Position numbers and translations under genes: made by a program | Source of the DNA: Demequina sp. NBRC 110052 | GTDB taxonomy: Bacteria > Actinomycetota > Actinomycetes > Actinomycetales > Demequinaceae | Length of the DNA: 64,000 nt | Reading direction: 5' to 3' | Assembly (NCBI RefSeq): GCF_002090075.1 | Contig: NZ_BBRI01000002.1 | Span: 744,001-808,000, forward strand | The notes under the pieces: model-generated | The model's database searches: none | What the model was told of the DNA's origin: nothing | What the model saw: the letters and a program-made list of their open reading frames with translations, nothing else | In this document: positions 50,864-58,508 of the stretch, piece by piece | Layout of the letters: every line of letters begins with the position of its first letter | Position numbering within the stretch: the stretch's first letter is position 1

Positions 50864-50943
50864 GTTCATGAGCGGGGCGCGCTCAGGTGGGCGGGGTGAA
50901 CTGGACGCCGTCACCCGCCCTCCACGGAACGGAATGCCCACCC

Positions 50944-53688
50944 ATGTCGCTCGCACTGCACCGGCTCGGCCACCTCGTCGGCCGCCACCGCGGCACCTTC
51001 ATCGCCGCCTGGATGCTGCTCCTGCTGCTCGTTGGCGGCGCCTCGCAGCTGCTCGGCTCGTCGTTCGCCGACGACTACACCATCTCGGGTACGGAGTCGC
51101 AGGAGGGCCAGGACGTGCTCGCGGCGCGCTTCGGCGACGCCGCCGCCGGGGCGACCGGGCAGGTGCTGTATCGCGTCGAGGCGGGATCGGACGTCACCAG
51201 CGATGAAACGATGGCGGTGATCGAGGAGAGCCTGGCCGCCATCTCCGGGATCGACGGTGTCGCGGGGGTTCCCGACGCCGAGGACCTGGGTATCGACGAG
51301 GCTGGCGATGCCGCGCTCGGCACAGTCCAGTTCGAGGACGCGAAGCCGAGCGCGGAGACGCTTGACGCGGTCACGGAGGCCGCGACGGTCGCTGCCTCGG
51401 GCGTGAGCTCCACGATCGGAGGTTCCGCATTCTCCGAGACGCCCGAGCCCGAGGGCCACACGTCGGAGATCATCGGCATCGTCGTGGCACTGCTGGTCAT
51501 GGTCCTCACGTTCGGATCGCTGCTCGCCGCAGGAATGCCAATCCTGACTGCACTGCTGGGCGTCGGGACCACGCTGTCGGCGATCACGCTGCTCACCCAC
51601 GTCACCTCGGTCTCGAACGCGTCACCCGCATTCGCCTCGATGCTCGGGCTCGCGGTCGCGATCGACTACTCGCTGTTCATCCTCTCCCGCCACCGCGCCG
51701 AGCTCGCGACGGGCGCCACGCCCCGCGAGGCCATGGCCCGCGCACTGGCCACGTCCGGCTCGGCCGTCGTCTTCGCGGGCCTCACGGTCATCGTGTCGCT
51801 CGTGGGCCTCGTGGTGGTGAACATTCCTCTGCTCACGGTGATGGCGCTCGCTGGCGCGATGGCCGTTGCGATGGCCGTGCTCGCCGCGCTCACGCTGCTT
51901 CCGGCGGTGGCGCTGCTCGCGGGCGCCCGTCTCACCCCGCGCACGCGCCGGGGGCCGAGCACGGGCGAGCGCGTCTCGTCACGTTGGATCGACACGGTCA
52001 CCCGCAGGCCGCGCATCACGATCGCGGCCGTGGTGGCAGTCCTGGGGATCGTCGCGGTGCCAGCGTTCTCGCTGCAGCTCGCACTGCCCGACGCCGGCCA
52101 CGAGCCCGAGGGGACCGCCGCGCGCGAGCACTTCGACGCGGTCGCGGAGACGTTCGGCCCCGGCTGGAACGCGCCGCTGCTCATCACCGCCGACATCCTC
52201 GCTTCCGACAACCCGCTGCGCGCGGTTGAGGACCTCGAGGAGGCGGTGGCGGCGCTTCCCGGGGTGGCGGCGGTGGACATGGCGACCCCGAATGCCGCGG
52301 CAGACACGGCGCTGCTGCGCGTCATCCCCGAAGGGGGGCAGTCGGATCCCGCCACGGAGGACCTGGTTCACACGATCCGCGAGCACGCGGACCAGGTGGA
52401 GACCGATCTCGGCATCGACGACATCCGCGTGACCGGCACCACTGCGATCAACATCGACGTCTCCGAGCGGCTTGAGGCGGCGCTGCTGCCGTTCGGGCTC
52501 ACCGTCGTGGGCCTGTCGCTCGTGCTGCTGCTGATCGTGTTCCGCTCTGTCGCCGTCCCCGTCAAGGCCACGGCGGGCTACGTGCTTTCCGTCGGCGCGG
52601 CTTTCGGCGCGATCGTGGCAGTCTTCCAGTGGGGTTGGCTTCCCTTCATCCTGGGGGATACGGTCCCCGGCCCGCTCGTGAGCTTCCTGCCGATCCTCGT
52701 GATGGGCGTGCTGTTCGGGCTCGCGATGGACTACGAGATGTTCCTGGTGAGCCGCATGCGCGAGGAGTACGCCCACACCGGCGACCCGCACCGCGCGATC
52801 CGCGCAGGCTTCGCGCATTCAGCCCCGGTCGTGACTGCCGCCGCGATCATCATGGTCAGCGTCTTCGTGGCCTTCCTTCCCGGCGGCTCGGCGACTATCA
52901 AGCCCATCGCCTTCGGACTCGCCGTGGGCGTCGCGGTGGACGCATTCCTCATCCGCATGACTCTCGTGCCGGCCGTGCTCACCTTGCTCGAGGACCGCGC
53001 ATGGTGGATCCCCGACTGGCTCGATCGACGCCTGCCGGTCGTCGACGTCGAGGGCGATGCGCTCGTGCGCCAGACGGCCGTCGACGGCTCCCCCGAGGCA
53101 TCGTGTGCGGTCGCAGCCCGTGGCCTCGTGGCGCGGCGAGGAGACGTGCCGCTCGACATCGACGCCGCTCCTGGGGACATCGTGACGCTCCCAGTGCCCG
53201 ACGCCGACGCCCAGATCGCCATCGCCGCAGTCCTCACGGGGCGCTCGCGATCGTATGCGGGCGAGCTCGTCGTGGACGGCATGATCCTGCCCGAGCGATC
53301 CGAGGAAGTGCGCTCCCGGTCCGCCGTCGCGTTGCCGGACGCCGCCGATGAACGGGTCTGCGCGATCGCGATGGTCGACGCCGAGCTGGGCCTCGCGGGC
53401 GTGCGAGGCCAGCGCCGTCGCGAGAACTTGGACCACGCCGCCGGTCTGCTCTCGGCGCTCGGCATCGCGCACGACGCCCCGGTGGCGACGCTCGGCGCAG
53501 CGGACCGGCGCGCGCTCGTCGCGGTGACCTCTCTCGCTGCCGGCGCACGCGTCATCGTGCTGCCCGGCGCCCCGGATGAGCGGCTGTGCGCACTGCTCAC
53601 CGGTCATGGCGCCGCCGTCGTCGCGTTCCCCCCGTCCCGCGCCACCCTCGCACGAGCCGGCGCCACGCCGCTCGAGATCGGAGCCTGA
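50944..53688 (+). CDS. MMPL family transporter with C-terminal degenerate ABC-ATPase-like domain
   Basis: The 914-aa protein is an RND-superfamily MMPL transporter, with two repeats of one plus five TM helices and extracytoplasmic domains between (TM1 about 17-37). LGLAVAIDYSLFILSRHR and LFGLAMDYEMFLVSRMREEY carry the conserved Asp-Tyr pairs of the proton path. Residues 700-914 are extra. They read like an ABC ATPase that has lost its catalytic residues: AARGLVARRG, AVLTGRSRSYAGELVVDG, LGAADRRALVAVTSLAAGAR (signature-like) and VIVLPGAPDE (Walker-B-like without Asp-Glu), with no Walker A lysine. ATG 50944 is chosen; a GTG at 50887 has no support. First gene of a four-gene operon. Confidence 0.88.
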   Translation: MSLALHRLGHLVGRHRGTFIAAWMLLLLLVGGASQLLGSSFADDYTISGTESQEGQDVLAARFGDAAAGATGQVLYRVEAGSDVTSDETMAVIEESLAAISGIDGVAGVPDAEDLGIDEAGDAALGTVQFEDAKPSAETLDAVTEAATVAASGVSSTIGGSAFSETPEPEGHTSEIIGIVVALLVMVLTFGSLLAAGMPILTALLGVGTTLSAITLLTHVTSVSNASPAFASMLGLAVAIDYSLFILSRHRAELATGATPREAMARALATSGSAVVFAGLTVIVSLVGLVVVNIPLLTVMALAGAMAVAMAVLAALTLLPAVALLAGARLTPRTRRGPSTGERVSSRWIDTVTRRPRITIAAVVAVLGIVAVPAFSLQLALPDAGHEPEGTAAREHFDAVAETFGPGWNAPLLITADILASDNPLRAVEDLEEAVAALPGVAAVDMATPNAAADTALLRVIPEGGQSDPATEDLVHTIREHADQVETDLGIDDIRVTGTTAINIDVSERLEAALLPFGLTVVGLSLVLLLIVFRSVAVPVKATAGYVLSVGAAFGAIVAVFQWGWLPFILGDTVPGPLVSFLPILVMGVLFGLAMDYEMFLVSRMREEYAHTGDPHRAIRAGFAHSAPVVTAAAIIMVSVFVAFLPGGSATIKPIAFGLAVGVAVDAFLIRMTLVPAVLTLLEDRAWWIPDWLDRRLPVVDVEGDALVRQTAVDGSPEASCAVAARGLVARRGDVPLDIDAAPGDIVTLPVPDADAQIAIAAVLTGRSRSYAGELVVDGMILPERSEEVRSRSAVALPDAADERVCAIAMVDAELGLAGVRGQRRRENLDHAAGLLSALGIAHDAPVATLGAADRRALVAVTSLAAGARVIVLPGAPDERLCALLTGHGAAVVAFPPSRATLARAGATPLEIGA

Positions 53689-53689
53689 G

Positions 53690-55636
53690 ATGCGCATGCG
53701 CCTCACCCGCAGCACTGTCCTCGTCGCTCTCGCCGCCGTCGCACTGCCCGCCATCGGCGCGGCCGTCCTGTCGTGGAGCGTGTCTGACCGCACCGAGTCC
53801 CTCGCATCGGTCCCGGTCGCGATCGTCAACGACGATCAGATCGTCACCGGCGAGACTCCGATGGCGGCCGGCCGTGCGCTGAGCGACGCGCTCGTACACC
53901 CGGATGACGGCGAGGAGACGCTCGATTGGACCGTCACCAGTGCGTCCGCCGCCGAGCAGGGACTCGAGGATGGCACGTACCTCGCGGTGCTCACGATCCC
54001 CGAGGACTTCTCGGCCTCCGTGCTGTCGATCAGCTCGGAGGACCCGGAGCAGGCCGCGCTCACGCTCGAGACCGATCCCGCCGCCTCCGCCAGCACCGCG
54101 CTGATCTCGACGGCGTTGAGCACGGCCGCGGCGGACACGCTCGGCACGCAGATCGCCGAGACCGTGCTCACCGCCACGTACACGGGGCTTGGGGATCTCT
54201 CCCTCGCACTCACCCAGGCTGCTGACGGAGCGGACCAGCTCGCCGACGGAGCCGATGAGCTCGCCGAGGGCACCGCGCAGGTGGCCGATGGTGCCGACGC
54301 GCTTGCGGATGGCATCGCGACGCTCGCCGACGGAGCGGACCAGGTCTACGGCGGCGCCGCAGCTCTTGCGGACGGAGCCGCACAGGCGGCGACGGGAGTC
54401 GAGCAGCTCTCCGATGGCGCCGAGGCGCTGGCCACCGGGGCGACGTCGCTCGCGTCCGGATCGCGCGGCGTCTCGACGGGCGTCGCCGGTTCCGCCGACG
54501 GCGCCGGCACACTGGCACAGTCACTTGTGGACCTCGCAGCGACCTGCACCGCCTCGGGCGCTTCCGCCCAGTACTGCGCCTCCATCGCCGGTGTCGCGGC
54601 AGGGGCCTCCGAGCTCGCGGACGGCCTCGGCACGCTAGCGGGCGCGGCCGACGCGACGGCCAGCGGAGCCTCGGCGCTCGCCGCCTCGACGGTTCAGTAC
54701 GCTGACGGTGCCGACGCAGCGGCGAGCGGTCTCGACGGTCTCGCCGACGGCGCGAGCCAGGTGGCGCAGGGCACCGCCAGCATCGCCGACGGCCTGGCAG
54801 CCTCGGCCGATGGCGCACGGCAGCTCACCGATGGCACTGCGGGGATCGCCGAAGGTGCGTCGTCGCTCGCCGAGGGAAGCGTCGCTCTGGCCGACGGGCT
54901 CGCGCAGGGCGCTTCCCAGGCGCCCTCGTACACCGAGGACCAGGCTGCCGAACTCGCGTCGGTGGTGGCCTCCCCGGTCGCGCTGAGCGCCTCGGCGGAG
55001 AGCAGCGGCTCGGGCTGGGCAGCCGCCGCCATCCTCGCCATCGTGCTGTGGCTCGCACCGCTCACCGTGTGGGCTCCGGGCCGCCGCGCGGATGGGGCCG
55101 CACTGCTCGCAGCGCCCGCCACGTCGCGCCGGGTGGCACGCGCCCTGGCACGACCCGTCGTGCTCCTGGCAGCAGGACAGGCCGTCGCGACGGTGCTCGT
55201 GCTCGCGCTGATGGGGATCTCGATGGACGCGATCGTGGGAGTCACCCTGCTGTCCGTCCTCGCGGGAGTGACGTTCGCGCTCTTCGCCGCCGGGCTGCGG
55301 GCGGCCCTCGGCCGATTCGCACTCGCGGCGTACGCGCTGCTGACGCTCGTGCAGGTGGGCACGCTCACCGGCGTGCTGCCGCTCGAGTCCGCTCCGGCGC
55401 CGTTGGCTGCCGTCTCGGGCCTCATGCCCGCGACCGCCTTCATGAACGCTGCCGCAACGTTGGCTGGCGATCCGACCGGCGCGTCCGTCGCGGGCGCCGC
55501 GGTGTGCCTTCTCGGCTGGGCGGTGGTGGGCATGGCACTCATCCGCCGCCGTGTGGCGCTGGTCCGGATGCCCCGCGCGCTCACGGCGCGCGGCCCCTTC
55601 ACCGCGTTGACCTCCGATGGCAGGATGACGGCATGA
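53690..55636 (+). CDS. YhgE/Pip family membrane protein with long Ala/Asp/Gly repeat region
   Basis: The 648-aa protein has TM1 near the N-terminus (VLVALAAVALPAIGAAVLSW), a YhgE/Pip N-terminal domain (VPVAIVNDDQIVTGETPMAAG, GTYLAVLTIPEDFSASVL), a long extracytoplasmic stretch (about 175-425) of imperfect 7-residue repeats of the form DGAxxLA, and five C-terminal TM helices with an ABC-2-like layout. The repeats should form a long amphipathic helix or coiled coil. ATG 53690 follows the MMPL stop by one base. Homologues are called phage infection protein or ESX-like export subunits; the function is open. The stop overlaps the response regulator (ATGA). Confidence 0.88.
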   Translation: MRMRLTRSTVLVALAAVALPAIGAAVLSWSVSDRTESLASVPVAIVNDDQIVTGETPMAAGRALSDALVHPDDGEETLDWTVTSASAAEQGLEDGTYLAVLTIPEDFSASVLSISSEDPEQAALTLETDPAASASTALISTALSTAAADTLGTQIAETVLTATYTGLGDLSLALTQAADGADQLADGADELAEGTAQVADGADALADGIATLADGADQVYGGAAALADGAAQAATGVEQLSDGAEALATGATSLASGSRGVSTGVAGSADGAGTLAQSLVDLAATCTASGASAQYCASIAGVAAGASELADGLGTLAGAADATASGASALAASTVQYADGADAAASGLDGLADGASQVAQGTASIADGLAASADGARQLTDGTAGIAEGASSLAEGSVALADGLAQGASQAPSYTEDQAAELASVVASPVALSASAESSGSGWAAAAILAIVLWLAPLTVWAPGRRADGAALLAAPATSRRVARALARPVVLLAAGQAVATVLVLALMGISMDAIVGVTLLSVLAGVTFALFAAGLRAALGRFALAAYALLTLVQVGTLTGVLPLESAPAPLAAVSGLMPATAFMNAAATLAGDPTGASVAGAAVCLLGWAVVGMALIRRRVALVRMPRALTARGPFTALTSDGRMTA

Positions 55637-56328
55637 CCGCGCGCGTGCTCGTCGTCGATGACGACGAGGAGATCCGCACCATGCTCGCCTCGACCCTCAC
55701 GTTCGCGGGTTTCGAGGTTGGCCTCGCCGACGGCGCGGCCGCCGCCCTCGATGCGATCGCCTCGGACCGCCCCGACGTCGTCGTGCTCGACGTGTCGATG
55801 CCGGGCGCGGACGGCTTCGAGGTGGTCCAGCTCATCCGTGGCCGCGACTCGGCGCTGCCCGTGCTGTTCCTGTCCGCACGCGACTCGGTCGAGGACCGCG
55901 TACGAGGGCTTCGGCTCGGCGGCGACGACTACGTCACGAAGCCGTTCAGCGCGGTCGAGGTGGCGGCTCGCATCGAGGCGCTGCTGCGTCGGGGGGCGCC
56001 CGCGACTGCGTCCGACGCCCATGAGGTGCTCCGATACGAGGACCTCACGATGGACCTCGCGGCGCACCGGGTGGAACGCGCAGGCAGCGAGGTCGCCCTC
56101 TCTCCCACCGAGTACCGTCTGCTCGAACTCCTGCTGATCAACGCGGGCCGCGTGCTCTCCAAGGGACAGATCCTGGAGAACATCTGGGTATACGACTTCG
56201 GCGGCGACACCAACGTCGTCGAGCGCTTCATCTCGAATATCCGCCGCAAGGTCGACGACGGCAGACCGCCGCTGATCCACACGGTCCGCGGCTTCGGCTA
56301 CACCCTGCGCTCGGGCGATGGTTCCTGA
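55633..56328 (+). CDS. Response regulator, OmpR family
   Basis: The 231-aa protein has a receiver domain (1-115) with acidic Asp10/Asp11, phospho-acceptor Asp53 (VVLDVSMPG) and Lys103 (YVTKPF), and an OmpR-type winged-helix domain (about 135-228) ending PPLIHTVRGFGYTLR. It resembles actinobacterial MprA/TcrA-like regulators. The ATG overlaps the YhgE stop, and the kinase ATG follows its own stop directly, so all four genes form one transcript. The CGTCAG direct repeat before the MMPL gene is a candidate target. Confidence 0.95.
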   Translation: MTARVLVVDDDEEIRTMLASTLTFAGFEVGLADGAAAALDAIASDRPDVVVLDVSMPGADGFEVVQLIRGRDSALPVLFLSARDSVEDRVRGLRLGGDDYVTKPFSAVEVAARIEALLRRGAPATASDAHEVLRYEDLTMDLAAHRVERAGSEVALSPTEYRLLELLLINAGRVLSKGQILENIWVYDFGGDTNVVERFISNIRRKVDDGRPPLIHTVRGFGYTLRSGDGS

Positions 56329-57696
56329 ATGAGGTCCATCCGTGCGCGGCTCACTCTTGCCCTGTCGGCCATCACCCTCGTGATCGTGCTCGGGGCCGCG
56401 GGCATCGGGTCCATCGCGATCCCTCGCGTGCTCGAACAGCGCGATACCGACAGGCTCACCACTGCAGCGGCGAGGTCCATCGCCAGCCTCGAGGCCACCG
56501 GGGGTGCGGTGCTGATCGAGGGGTCGCTCACCGGGGTGGCGGGCGATGCGCTCGGGGTGGTGCTCGTGGCCGACGATATGCCGATCGCGGCGGCTGGAGT
56601 TGCGAGCGAGGACAGCCCAGCACTGTCGAGCGTCACGTCGAGCGACCCGGTGAAGGTCGCCGAGCACTACCTCGCCGTCGGCATCGATGTCGCCGACCTC
56701 AACCTGGTGTTCAGCGACGGCGACGGCTCGGTGACCGTCGACCGCGCCGTTCTCGCTGTCCGCACCGCCGACCGTGAGGCGGCAGTGAGCGAGATCGCCA
56801 CATGGCTGCTCCTCGGCGCTGTGGCGGTCACGTCGCTGCTGATCGGCGTCGCCACGGTGGTGGTCGCGCGCGGACTGCGGCCCCTGGATGACATGGCCGA
56901 CCGCGCGCAGCGCATCGCGGACGGCGACCGGACCCTGCGCCTCGCCTCAGACGATGCAGCGGACCCGTCGATCGCGCGCACCGCGCGCACCGTCAATGCG
57001 GCGCTCGATGCTCAAGAACTCGCGGAGCGAAGACTGCGGTCGTTCCTCGCCGATGCCTCGCATGAGCTGCGCACACCGCTCACGACCGCGAGCGGCTGGG
57101 TCGATCTGTACCTGCGCGGCGGCCTCGACGACCGTGCGAGGCTCGACGACGCGATGACCCGGGTCGACGCCCAGCTCACACGGATGCGGCTCATGACCGA
57201 CGAGATGCTTCAACTCGCGCGCACGGACGCAGGCCGCCCGCTCGAGCGCGAGGCCGTCGACCTTGCGCAGGTGGCGCGAGACGTCGTCGAGGACGCGCGC
57301 GTGGCGTCCCCAGAGCGTCGCATCGACATCGAGGCACGGGAACCTGCGATCGTGAGCGGGGATGAGCCTCGCCTCGCGCAGGTACTGCGCAACCTCGTCG
57401 GCAACGCGGCACAGCACACGGCTGCCGACGCGCGCATCGCCGTCATCGTCACTCCGGGCGCCGACCACCACACGGTGACGGTGGTCGACACCGGTGCAGG
57501 GATCCCCGCGACTGACCTCCCGCACCTCTTCGACCGCTTCTGGCGCGGCGGCAGCGCTCGCTCCGCGAAGGGCGGAGCCGGTCTGGGGCTCGCGATCGTG
57601 CGCTCGCTCGTCGAGGCGCATGAGGGGTCGGTCGTCGTCTCGAGCATCGTGGGCACCGGCACCGAGTTCACGGTGACCCTGCCCGCAGCACGCTAG
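56329..57696 (+). CDS. Sensor histidine kinase
   Basis: The 455-aa kinase has TM1 (about 9-31), an extracytoplasmic sensor of roughly 125 residues, TM2 (159-181), a HAMP domain (RGLRPLDDMADRAQRIADGD), and the dimerisation domain with phospho-acceptor His245 (FLADASHELRTPLT). The catalytic domain has the N box NLVGNAAQH, G1 DTGAGIPATD, F box and G2 GGAGLGLAIV. It starts right after the regulator's TGA. The sensor is unassigned; coupling to MMPL/YhgE suggests an envelope signal. Its stop overlaps the convergent phosphatase stop in CTAG. Confidence 0.95.
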   Translation: MRSIRARLTLALSAITLVIVLGAAGIGSIAIPRVLEQRDTDRLTTAAARSIASLEATGGAVLIEGSLTGVAGDALGVVLVADDMPIAAAGVASEDSPALSSVTSSDPVKVAEHYLAVGIDVADLNLVFSDGDGSVTVDRAVLAVRTADREAAVSEIATWLLLGAVAVTSLLIGVATVVVARGLRPLDDMADRAQRIADGDRTLRLASDDAADPSIARTARTVNAALDAQELAERRLRSFLADASHELRTPLTTASGWVDLYLRGGLDDRARLDDAMTRVDAQLTRMRLMTDEMLQLARTDAGRPLEREAVDLAQVARDVVEDARVASPERRIDIEAREPAIVSGDEPRLAQVLRNLVGNAAQHTAADARIAVIVTPGADHHTVTVVDTGAGIPATDLPHLFDRFWRGGSARSAKGGAGLGLAIVRSLVEAHEGSVVVSSIVGTGTEFTVTLPAAR

Positions 57697-58385
57697 AGCG
57701 CGAGCAGCCGCTGCTTGAGCGACGTCACGACGGCCGCATCGCCACCCGCCGAGACGAACCAGGCCTCCACGCCACCCGGATGCGCGTCCCACGTGTCGAG
57801 CACGAGCTCGATCGCGTGTGCAGGCGCCTCGAGGACCTCACGCGGGATGTCGGCGAGGTTGGCGGCACCGTCGCCGATGCCGAACTGACGCGCCATGCGC
57901 GCGAGCACCCCAGGCATCGACGCGGTCGTCAGCACGTAGTCCTCGACGATGTGCCGGCGCTCCACACCGATCAGCGCGAGCGCGAGCGCGACGGTCACGC
58001 CGGTGCGGTCCTTGCCCGCGGAGCAGTGCACGAGCGCCGACCCGTCGGCCTGCGCCACGATGGTGACGGCCTCGACGAACCTGGCCGCGGCGTCGGGCTG
58101 GAGCATGCGTCCGTAGAGCCCGGCGATCGTGCCGCCCGCGGCCTGCGACGCGAGCGCGGCATCCGCGAAGACCGGCACCTCGACCACCGTGGTGAGCGAC
58201 GCGAGCGGGTGACCATGCGAGCGCTCCGCGTCGTCGCGCAGGTCGATCACGACGGACGGCGGCCATGGCTCATGGCCCGTGGGCACCTCATCGCCGACGT
58301 GCGGTGCATCCGACCGCCACAGGATCCCCGGCCGCAGACCGGGAGTGCGATGCGCCACGTCGCGCAGGTTGGCAAGGGAGTTCAC
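57693..58385 (-). CDS. Tyrosine-protein phosphatase (DSP/PTP family)
   Basis: The 230-aa protein has the phosphatase P-loop HCSAGKDRTG (Cys121, Arg127) and the N-terminal NLRDVAHRTPGLRPGILWRSD, typical of actinobacterial protein tyrosine/serine phosphatases of the PtpB-like group; IDLRDDAER and the C-terminal helical part fit. Substrates are unknown; such enzymes dephosphorylate proteins or phosphoinositides. GTG 58385 has GGTGGA upstream; GTG 58415 is an alternative. Convergent with the kinase, sharing CTAG. Confidence 0.88.
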   Translation of the reverse strand: MNSLANLRDVAHRTPGLRPGILWRSDAPHVGDEVPTGHEPWPPSVVIDLRDDAERSHGHPLASLTTVVEVPVFADAALASQAAGGTIAGLYGRMLQPDAAARFVEAVTIVAQADGSALVHCSAGKDRTGVTVALALALIGVERRHIVEDYVLTTASMPGVLARMARQFGIGDGAANLADIPREVLEAPAHAIELVLDTWDAHPGGVEAWFVSAGGDAAVVTSLKQRLLAL

Positions 58386-58508
58386 GCACAGCAGTCCACC
58401 ACACACCACCGACACTCACCAATGGCCCCAGGTCCCGGGCGCACCCGCCCGACGCGCGGGTAGCGTGGGACGGGCACGGCGCCGACGCTCGGGCCGGGAA
58501 GGAGCACC

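Follow-up and report, generated by a model that had tools for sequence, protein, structure and literature searches.

The C-terminal tail (residues 700-914) of an MMPL (RND-type) transporter of Demequina sp. NBRC 110052 is an ABC nucleotide-binding domain (NBD) deprived of its catalytic residues, and the gene directly downstream encodes a YhgE/Pip membrane protein. The reading that we favour, with a probability of about 60%, is that a pump driven by the proton-motive force (PMF) acquired the NBD belonging to a YhgE (ABC-2-like) system and is now coupled to YhgE through it, ATP no longer being needed. The genes belong to a window of 64,000 nucleotides (contig NZ_BBRI01000002.1, positions 744,001 to 808,000), and the features relevant to the analysis are listed here in window coordinates.

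50944..53688, + strand: MMPL (RND-type) transporter with C-terminal pseudo-NBD, 914 aa (Pfam MMPL, E 1.9e-79; 75% identical orthologue in genome G001, fusion shared)
51664..51669, + strand: Asp241-Tyr242, first proton-relay pair of the MMPL core (motif AIDYSLF, 47/47 fused proteins)
52729..52734, + strand: Asp596-Tyr597, second proton-relay pair of the MMPL core (motif AMDYEMF, 47/47 fused proteins)
53041..53685, + strand: pseudo-ABC nucleotide-binding domain, residues 700-914, full length with helical subdomain (AlphaFold2 fold, structure match, profile match)
53044..53064, + strand: linker motif DVEGDAL, from the last MMPL helix to the pseudo-NBD (a DVEGEGL-like motif opens the tail in fused homologues)
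53194..53217, + strand: degenerate Walker A, VPDADAQI for GxxGxGKT, Lys replaced by Gln (alignment)
53236..53244, + strand: TGR (AGR) motif past the P-loop helix, with a near-invariant Arg (alignment of the family against canonical proteins)
53491..53550, + strand: signature-region remnant LGAADRRALVAVTSLAAGAR (aligned with the signature region of relatives)
53551..53568, + strand: degenerate Walker B VIVLPG, Asp replaced by Pro and catalytic Glu by Gly (alignment)
53690..55636, + strand: YhgE/Pip family protein, 648 aa, with ABC-2-like membrane domain and xxxLxxG stalk (TIGR03061, E 9.4e-31; ABC2_membrane_3, E 1.8e-12)
55633..56328, + strand: OmpR-type response regulator, its start overlapping the yhgE stop (ATGA) (Response_reg, Trans_reg_C)
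56329..57696, + strand: histidine kinase, closing the probable operon (HisKA, HATPase_c)

The MMPL gene starts with an ATG at 50944 and ends with a stop codon at 53686-53688, in a frame already open from a GTG at 50887; the reading frame, its coordinates and the motifs quoted by the first-pass annotation were all found as described. The ATG of yhgE, at 53690, is one base past that stop codon. As the MMPL gene, yhgE, and the response regulator and histidine kinase genes are closely spaced on one strand, they likely form one operon. On the minus strand, a gene of the tyrosine phosphatase family (Y_phosphatase3, 57693-58415) adjoins the two-component system. Beside two other loci (L036 and L133) TetR genes were found, whereas the window has its response regulator and histidine kinase genes directly 3' of yhgE; flanking regulators thus vary, and regulation of the operon differs between loci.

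A Pfam search with the single sequence matched the MMPL part only, with no match in the tail and ABC_tran not reached, and phmmer of the domain against the PDB gave nothing significant (best match TAP1, E 0.14, collinear), so that the similarity noticed in the first-pass annotation is not reported by ordinary annotation. Profiles gave a clear answer. When a profile built from seven fused tails (profile A1) was run against the PDB, MlaF was the best match (2.4e-7) and the 60 matches listed were all ABC-type ATPases; with the free-standing partners described below added to the profile, the best E value became 7e-20 (ABCA3). By hhalign, the fused-only alignment matched the Walker-A-intact free partners (99.5%, 3e-23) as well as five canonical ABC ATPases (97.3%, E 1.7e-11), the five being chosen among weak matches of the window domain itself. 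Alone, the window domain scored 32-33 bits against both the canonical ABC and the all-free-partner profiles, with a maximum of 9.6 bits among 500 shuffles.

The AlphaFold2 model of the domain has a mean pLDDT of 91.9 and a pTM of 0.88; its input alignment included intact relatives, possibly aiding the prediction, and the fused-only PDB profile contained none of these. The Foldseek matches listed for this model were ABC proteins (best E 1.7e-10), and VIA-align placed it at Z 19.3 from the ABC ATPase 4yer (195 residues, rmsd 2.7 A), followed by FtsE, MlaF and LptB at Z near 17.8. In the structure alignment the ABC NBD fold spans domain residues 20-215. The two checks proposed with the first-pass annotation, structure prediction and profile search, therefore both returned an ABC NBD. 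A chance resemblance arising in a high-GC, Ala-rich tail would account for the silent Pfam and single-sequence PDB searches, and for the spurious antisense frames that a search with the domain alone also produced, but it is hardly credible given the fold match, the profile matches, the shuffle test and the relatives with intact Walker A that occupy the same gene position; we regard the fold match and the profiles as having refuted it. We conclude that the ABC origin of the MMPL tail is firmly supported, and that residues 700-914 are confirmed as an ABC NBD minus its catalytic residues. The domain shares fold and motif order with known ABC NBDs (ABC_tran PF00005; MlaF, FtsE, LptB, NodI/DrrA type), and differs from them in having lost both Walker motifs and the catalytic Glu, in its fusion to an MMPL protein, and in the absence of the helical subdomain from most fused relatives.

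Motifs were compared in an alignment of 76 relatives (47 fused proteins and 29 free partners) with the 5 canonical ABC ATPases. The first-pass annotation had the Walker A Lys and the Walker B Asp-Glu missing from the window domain; the alignment bears this out, with Q, P and G at the positions of the Walker A Lys, Walker B Asp and catalytic Glu. The domain has no GxxGxGK[ST] and no LSGGQ signature, the position of the latter being taken by LGAADRR. Because the catalytic residues are gone, it should not hydrolyse ATP. None of the 47 fused proteins has K at the Walker A Lys position, which is R in 24 and V, S, A, Q or P in the rest; the Walker B Asp is retained in 34. The catalytic Glu is found in none of the 47, nor in any of the 29 free partners, 13 of which have an Asp there. 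The Arg of the AGR motif is present in all fused proteins and in 28 of the 29 free partners, versus 0/5 canonical ABC ATPases. The spacing between Walker A and Walker B in fused proteins has two peaks, at 56-73 residues (42/47) and at 117-138 (5/47, window included). The 42 proteins with short spacing have the helical subdomain deleted; the window, belonging to the other class, keeps a fuller form of the domain.

One fused MMPL, from an actinomycete MAG (L191:1286-4210), has a Walker A-like GARPCGKS and a DD Walker B (VLVDDAD), without helical subdomain, and is a possible intermediate. It bears on the order of events put forward in the first-pass annotation, catalysis being lost and fusion coming afterwards: the absence of the Glu from all 29 free partners agrees with this order, but the Walker A-like motif kept in a fused protein does not. 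These residues also invite a different function, that of a non-hydrolytic regulator which would sense a nucleotide or another ligand and gate the MMPL pump, with no contact to YhgE. Pseudo-NBDs that bind ATP without hydrolysing it are known, and the Walker B Asp in 34/47 fused proteins, the Arg at the Walker A Lys position in 24/47 and the full Walker A of L191 would suit such a role. We nevertheless consider it unlikely, since the window domain has kept neither Walker motif nor the catalytic Glu, and since the strict linkage to yhgE has no role in it.

This linkage was found in every assessable fused locus: yhgE lies directly 3' of the fused gene in 62 out of 62 (46/46 in the genome set, 16/16 in named genomes), a count that leaves aside loci ending at a contig edge, a duplicate (L189 = L033) and the frameshifted L082. 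Where measured, yhgE starts -23 to +3 nt from the end of the fused gene, a 4-nt overlap being the commonest arrangement. YhgE was present in 0 of the 68 loci whose MMPL lacks the domain, some of these loci being short. In a survey started from YhgE, 18 of the 20 loci without fused MMPL have a free ABC-like gene directly upstream of yhgE, and the remaining 2 have tandem YhgE genes. The free-standing homologues for which the first-pass annotation suggested a survey therefore exist, and exactly upstream of yhgE. Walker A is kept in some of these genes and lost in many. In the rest of the phylum, a free ABC-like gene was found at 8 of the 12 full-length YhgE loci, short weak YhgE-N matches (L152, L163-L165) being excluded; Walker A of these partners is intact (GRNGSGKT in L156), has its K replaced by R, or is lost.

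A tree was built from 74 YhgE proteins. Those partnered with fused MMPLs fall into a single clade (SH-aLRT 100, one change); the free-partner classes group by type. A single fusion event is likely, because the YhgE partners of the fused proteins form one clade. The MMPL tree, with 7 plain MMPLs in total and long branches, needs two changes, and is compatible with one fusion as well as with a fusion plus a loss. The first-pass annotation had placed an ATPase gene once between the MMPL and yhgE genes. The fused NBD, the free homologues and the single YhgE clade favour this scenario, but no three-gene MMPL-ATPase-YhgE intermediate was seen among the loci surveyed.

An ATP-driven YhgE system would persist if the dead domain dimerised with an active NBD from another locus and this NBD burned ATP for YhgE. 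Heterodimeric ABC exporters in which one site is degenerate are common, and some genomes (G042 and G116, for example) hold, in addition to the fused locus, a second locus where YhgE has a free partner with intact Walker A. Such a pairing appears quite unlikely: the window genome has one YhgE match only, the ABC-like gene coupled to yhgE in fused loci is the domain itself, and the canonical NBD sandwich requires the helical subdomain, which is missing from most fused domains.

Of the 396 genomes of the order searched with profile A1, well over 100 carry the fusion. Well over 100 matches were in open frames of ~900-1300 aa; frames of ~300-600 aa held fewer. About 55 more loci were examined: long frames were MMPL fusions followed by YhgE, and short ones were free-standing ABC-like genes directly upstream of yhgE, nine with Walker A intact and two with K replaced by R. 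Left out were L080, where a canonical ABC ATPase occurs with no YhgE, and L082, an MMPL-pseudo-NBD-YhgE locus. In L082 both the domain and YhgE show apparent frameshifts, which reflect either pseudogenes or assembly errors. With the whole protein as query, the orthologue of G001, a genome of the same genus, was 75% identical (62% in the tail), and fused proteins were also found in other families of the order; among named genomes, fused relatives occur in Microbacterium, Nocardioides, Marmoricola, Mumia and Brachybacterium. A scan of the named genomes with the domain alone as query gave no match. The search for relatives with the domain alone was discarded, as it yielded mostly spurious antisense frames of high-GC DNA, along with genuine ABC ATPases and a single true orthologue, a difficulty resolved by the fused-family profiles. 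The free-standing relatives score over the ABC_tran cut-off, but under those of the NodI, CcmA and DrrA models. The family to which the domain belongs is large and, apparently, undescribed.

Between the window and G001, the MMPL core had a dN/dS of 0.21, the domain one of 0.41 and YhgE one of 0.33, and six other pairs of domains gave 0.06-0.40, values that are rough at such divergence, yet well under 1. To judge from these coding sequences, the pseudo-NBD is under purifying selection. This is difficult to reconcile with a decaying relic, that is, a functionless leftover of the fusion. The loss of the catalytic motifs, the deletion of the helical subdomain in 42/47 proteins and, in the MMPL tree, some MMPLs near the fused group without the domain are what a relic might leave, but the dN/dS of 0.06-0.41 in the domain, the invariant AGR Arg, the frames kept open across well over 100 genomes from many families and the confident AlphaFold2 fold make it very unlikely.

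As for the transporter core, it has the MMPL domain (PF03176, two stretches) and both Asp-Tyr pairs in common with MMPL/RND proteins (MmpL3-like, TIGR00833 actII, HAE3), and differs from them by the C-terminal pseudo-NBD and the obligate yhgE neighbour. In MmpL3 these Asp-Tyr pairs make up the proton relay; since both are present in 47/47 fused proteins, the pump part looks active. The window protein scores under the cut-off of every named NCBIfam model, and its identification as MmpL3, the trehalose monomycolate exporter, was rejected (178 versus 1400 bits, cut-off of NF052608).

YhgE/Pip is a common Gram-positive family whose role is unclear. The first-pass annotation had assigned the window protein to it, rightly so, as the N-terminal domain TIGR03061 scores over its cut-off (106.6 versus 96.15 bits). 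The protein resembles YhgE/Pip (phage infection protein, TC 9.B.74) and EsaA/YueB in this domain, in an EsaA N-terminal similarity and in the xxxLxxG stalk, but differs in a divergent C-terminal half, where TIGR03062 remains under its cut-off (43.5 versus 102.2 bits, E 2.6e-11). Its relatives weakly match DrrB-type permeases. The model (pLDDT 78) has a long helical stalk surrounded by TM helices, and a fold search with it gave weak matches only, none below E 0.001, with 3cni (ABC type-2 domain), ABCH, ABCG and KpsM-type chains among coiled coils. Homologues of the PIP family include transport proteins of the ABC-2 superfamily (PMC3924187).

Taking these results together, the reading of coupling without an ATPase fits the ABC fold, the yhgE linkage, the free homologues, the single clade, the proton relay and the purifying selection. 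The pseudo-NBD would descend from an ABC-type ATPase subunit serving YhgE. YhgE itself, ABC-2-like and with a long extracytoplasmic stalk, would supply the membrane half of this ABC-like system. In one lineage, the ATPase gene would have become fused to that of an MMPL/RND pump driven by protons, and the domain would retain the face gripping the cytoplasmic side of YhgE. Pump and YhgE would then make one export unit, with energy coming from the MMPL part and an outward path or scaffold from YhgE. Contact with YhgE, the PMF as energy source and export of a substrate are what we infer. In working ABC proteins the helical subdomain carries part of the docking groove; as most fused homologues lack this subdomain, their mode of contact with YhgE would have to differ. 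The first-pass annotation had proposed an ATPase that lost catalysis, fused to MMPL, and perhaps serves as a dock between the two membrane proteins. Its evolutionary part is largely supported, and its interpretation overall partly so, a putative docking of the MMPL tail to YhgE being the best explanation.

At odds slightly below even, we would go further and propose a hybrid of two superfamilies, in which a PMF-driven RND/MMPL pump with a dead ABC NBD as built-in adapter grips YhgE, the ABC-2-like stalk protein. The result would be an exporter of Gram-positive actinobacteria that spans the envelope and works without ATP. In Actinomycetota more broadly, YhgE/Pip would then provide the membrane half, and an NBD that has lost catalysis repeatedly the other half, of an ABC-like system. 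RND and ABC exporters are regarded as separate superfamilies with separate energy sources. If true, a transporter would have swapped its energy source while the docking part stayed, and YhgE/Pip would gain a dedicated partner, hence a testable function. In the open-licence literature we found no description of an MMPL-ABC fusion, or of a dedicated ABC-like partner of YhgE, free or MMPL-fused, in line with the first-pass annotation, which knew of none for this architecture; the texts found to name both YhgE and MMPL do so in unrelated lists.

Two observations concern other arrangements of YhgE-like genes. Tandem YhgE-YhgE pairs, of about 750-950 and 720-755 aa, occur in several families (L145, L149, L159 and L160), with no adjoining ABC-like gene. 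In the same genus, the G001 locus has its fused MMPL gene preceded, at a distance of ~2 kb, by a gene for a 331-aa ABC2_membrane_3 (YhgE-N-like) protein (L031:2347-3339).
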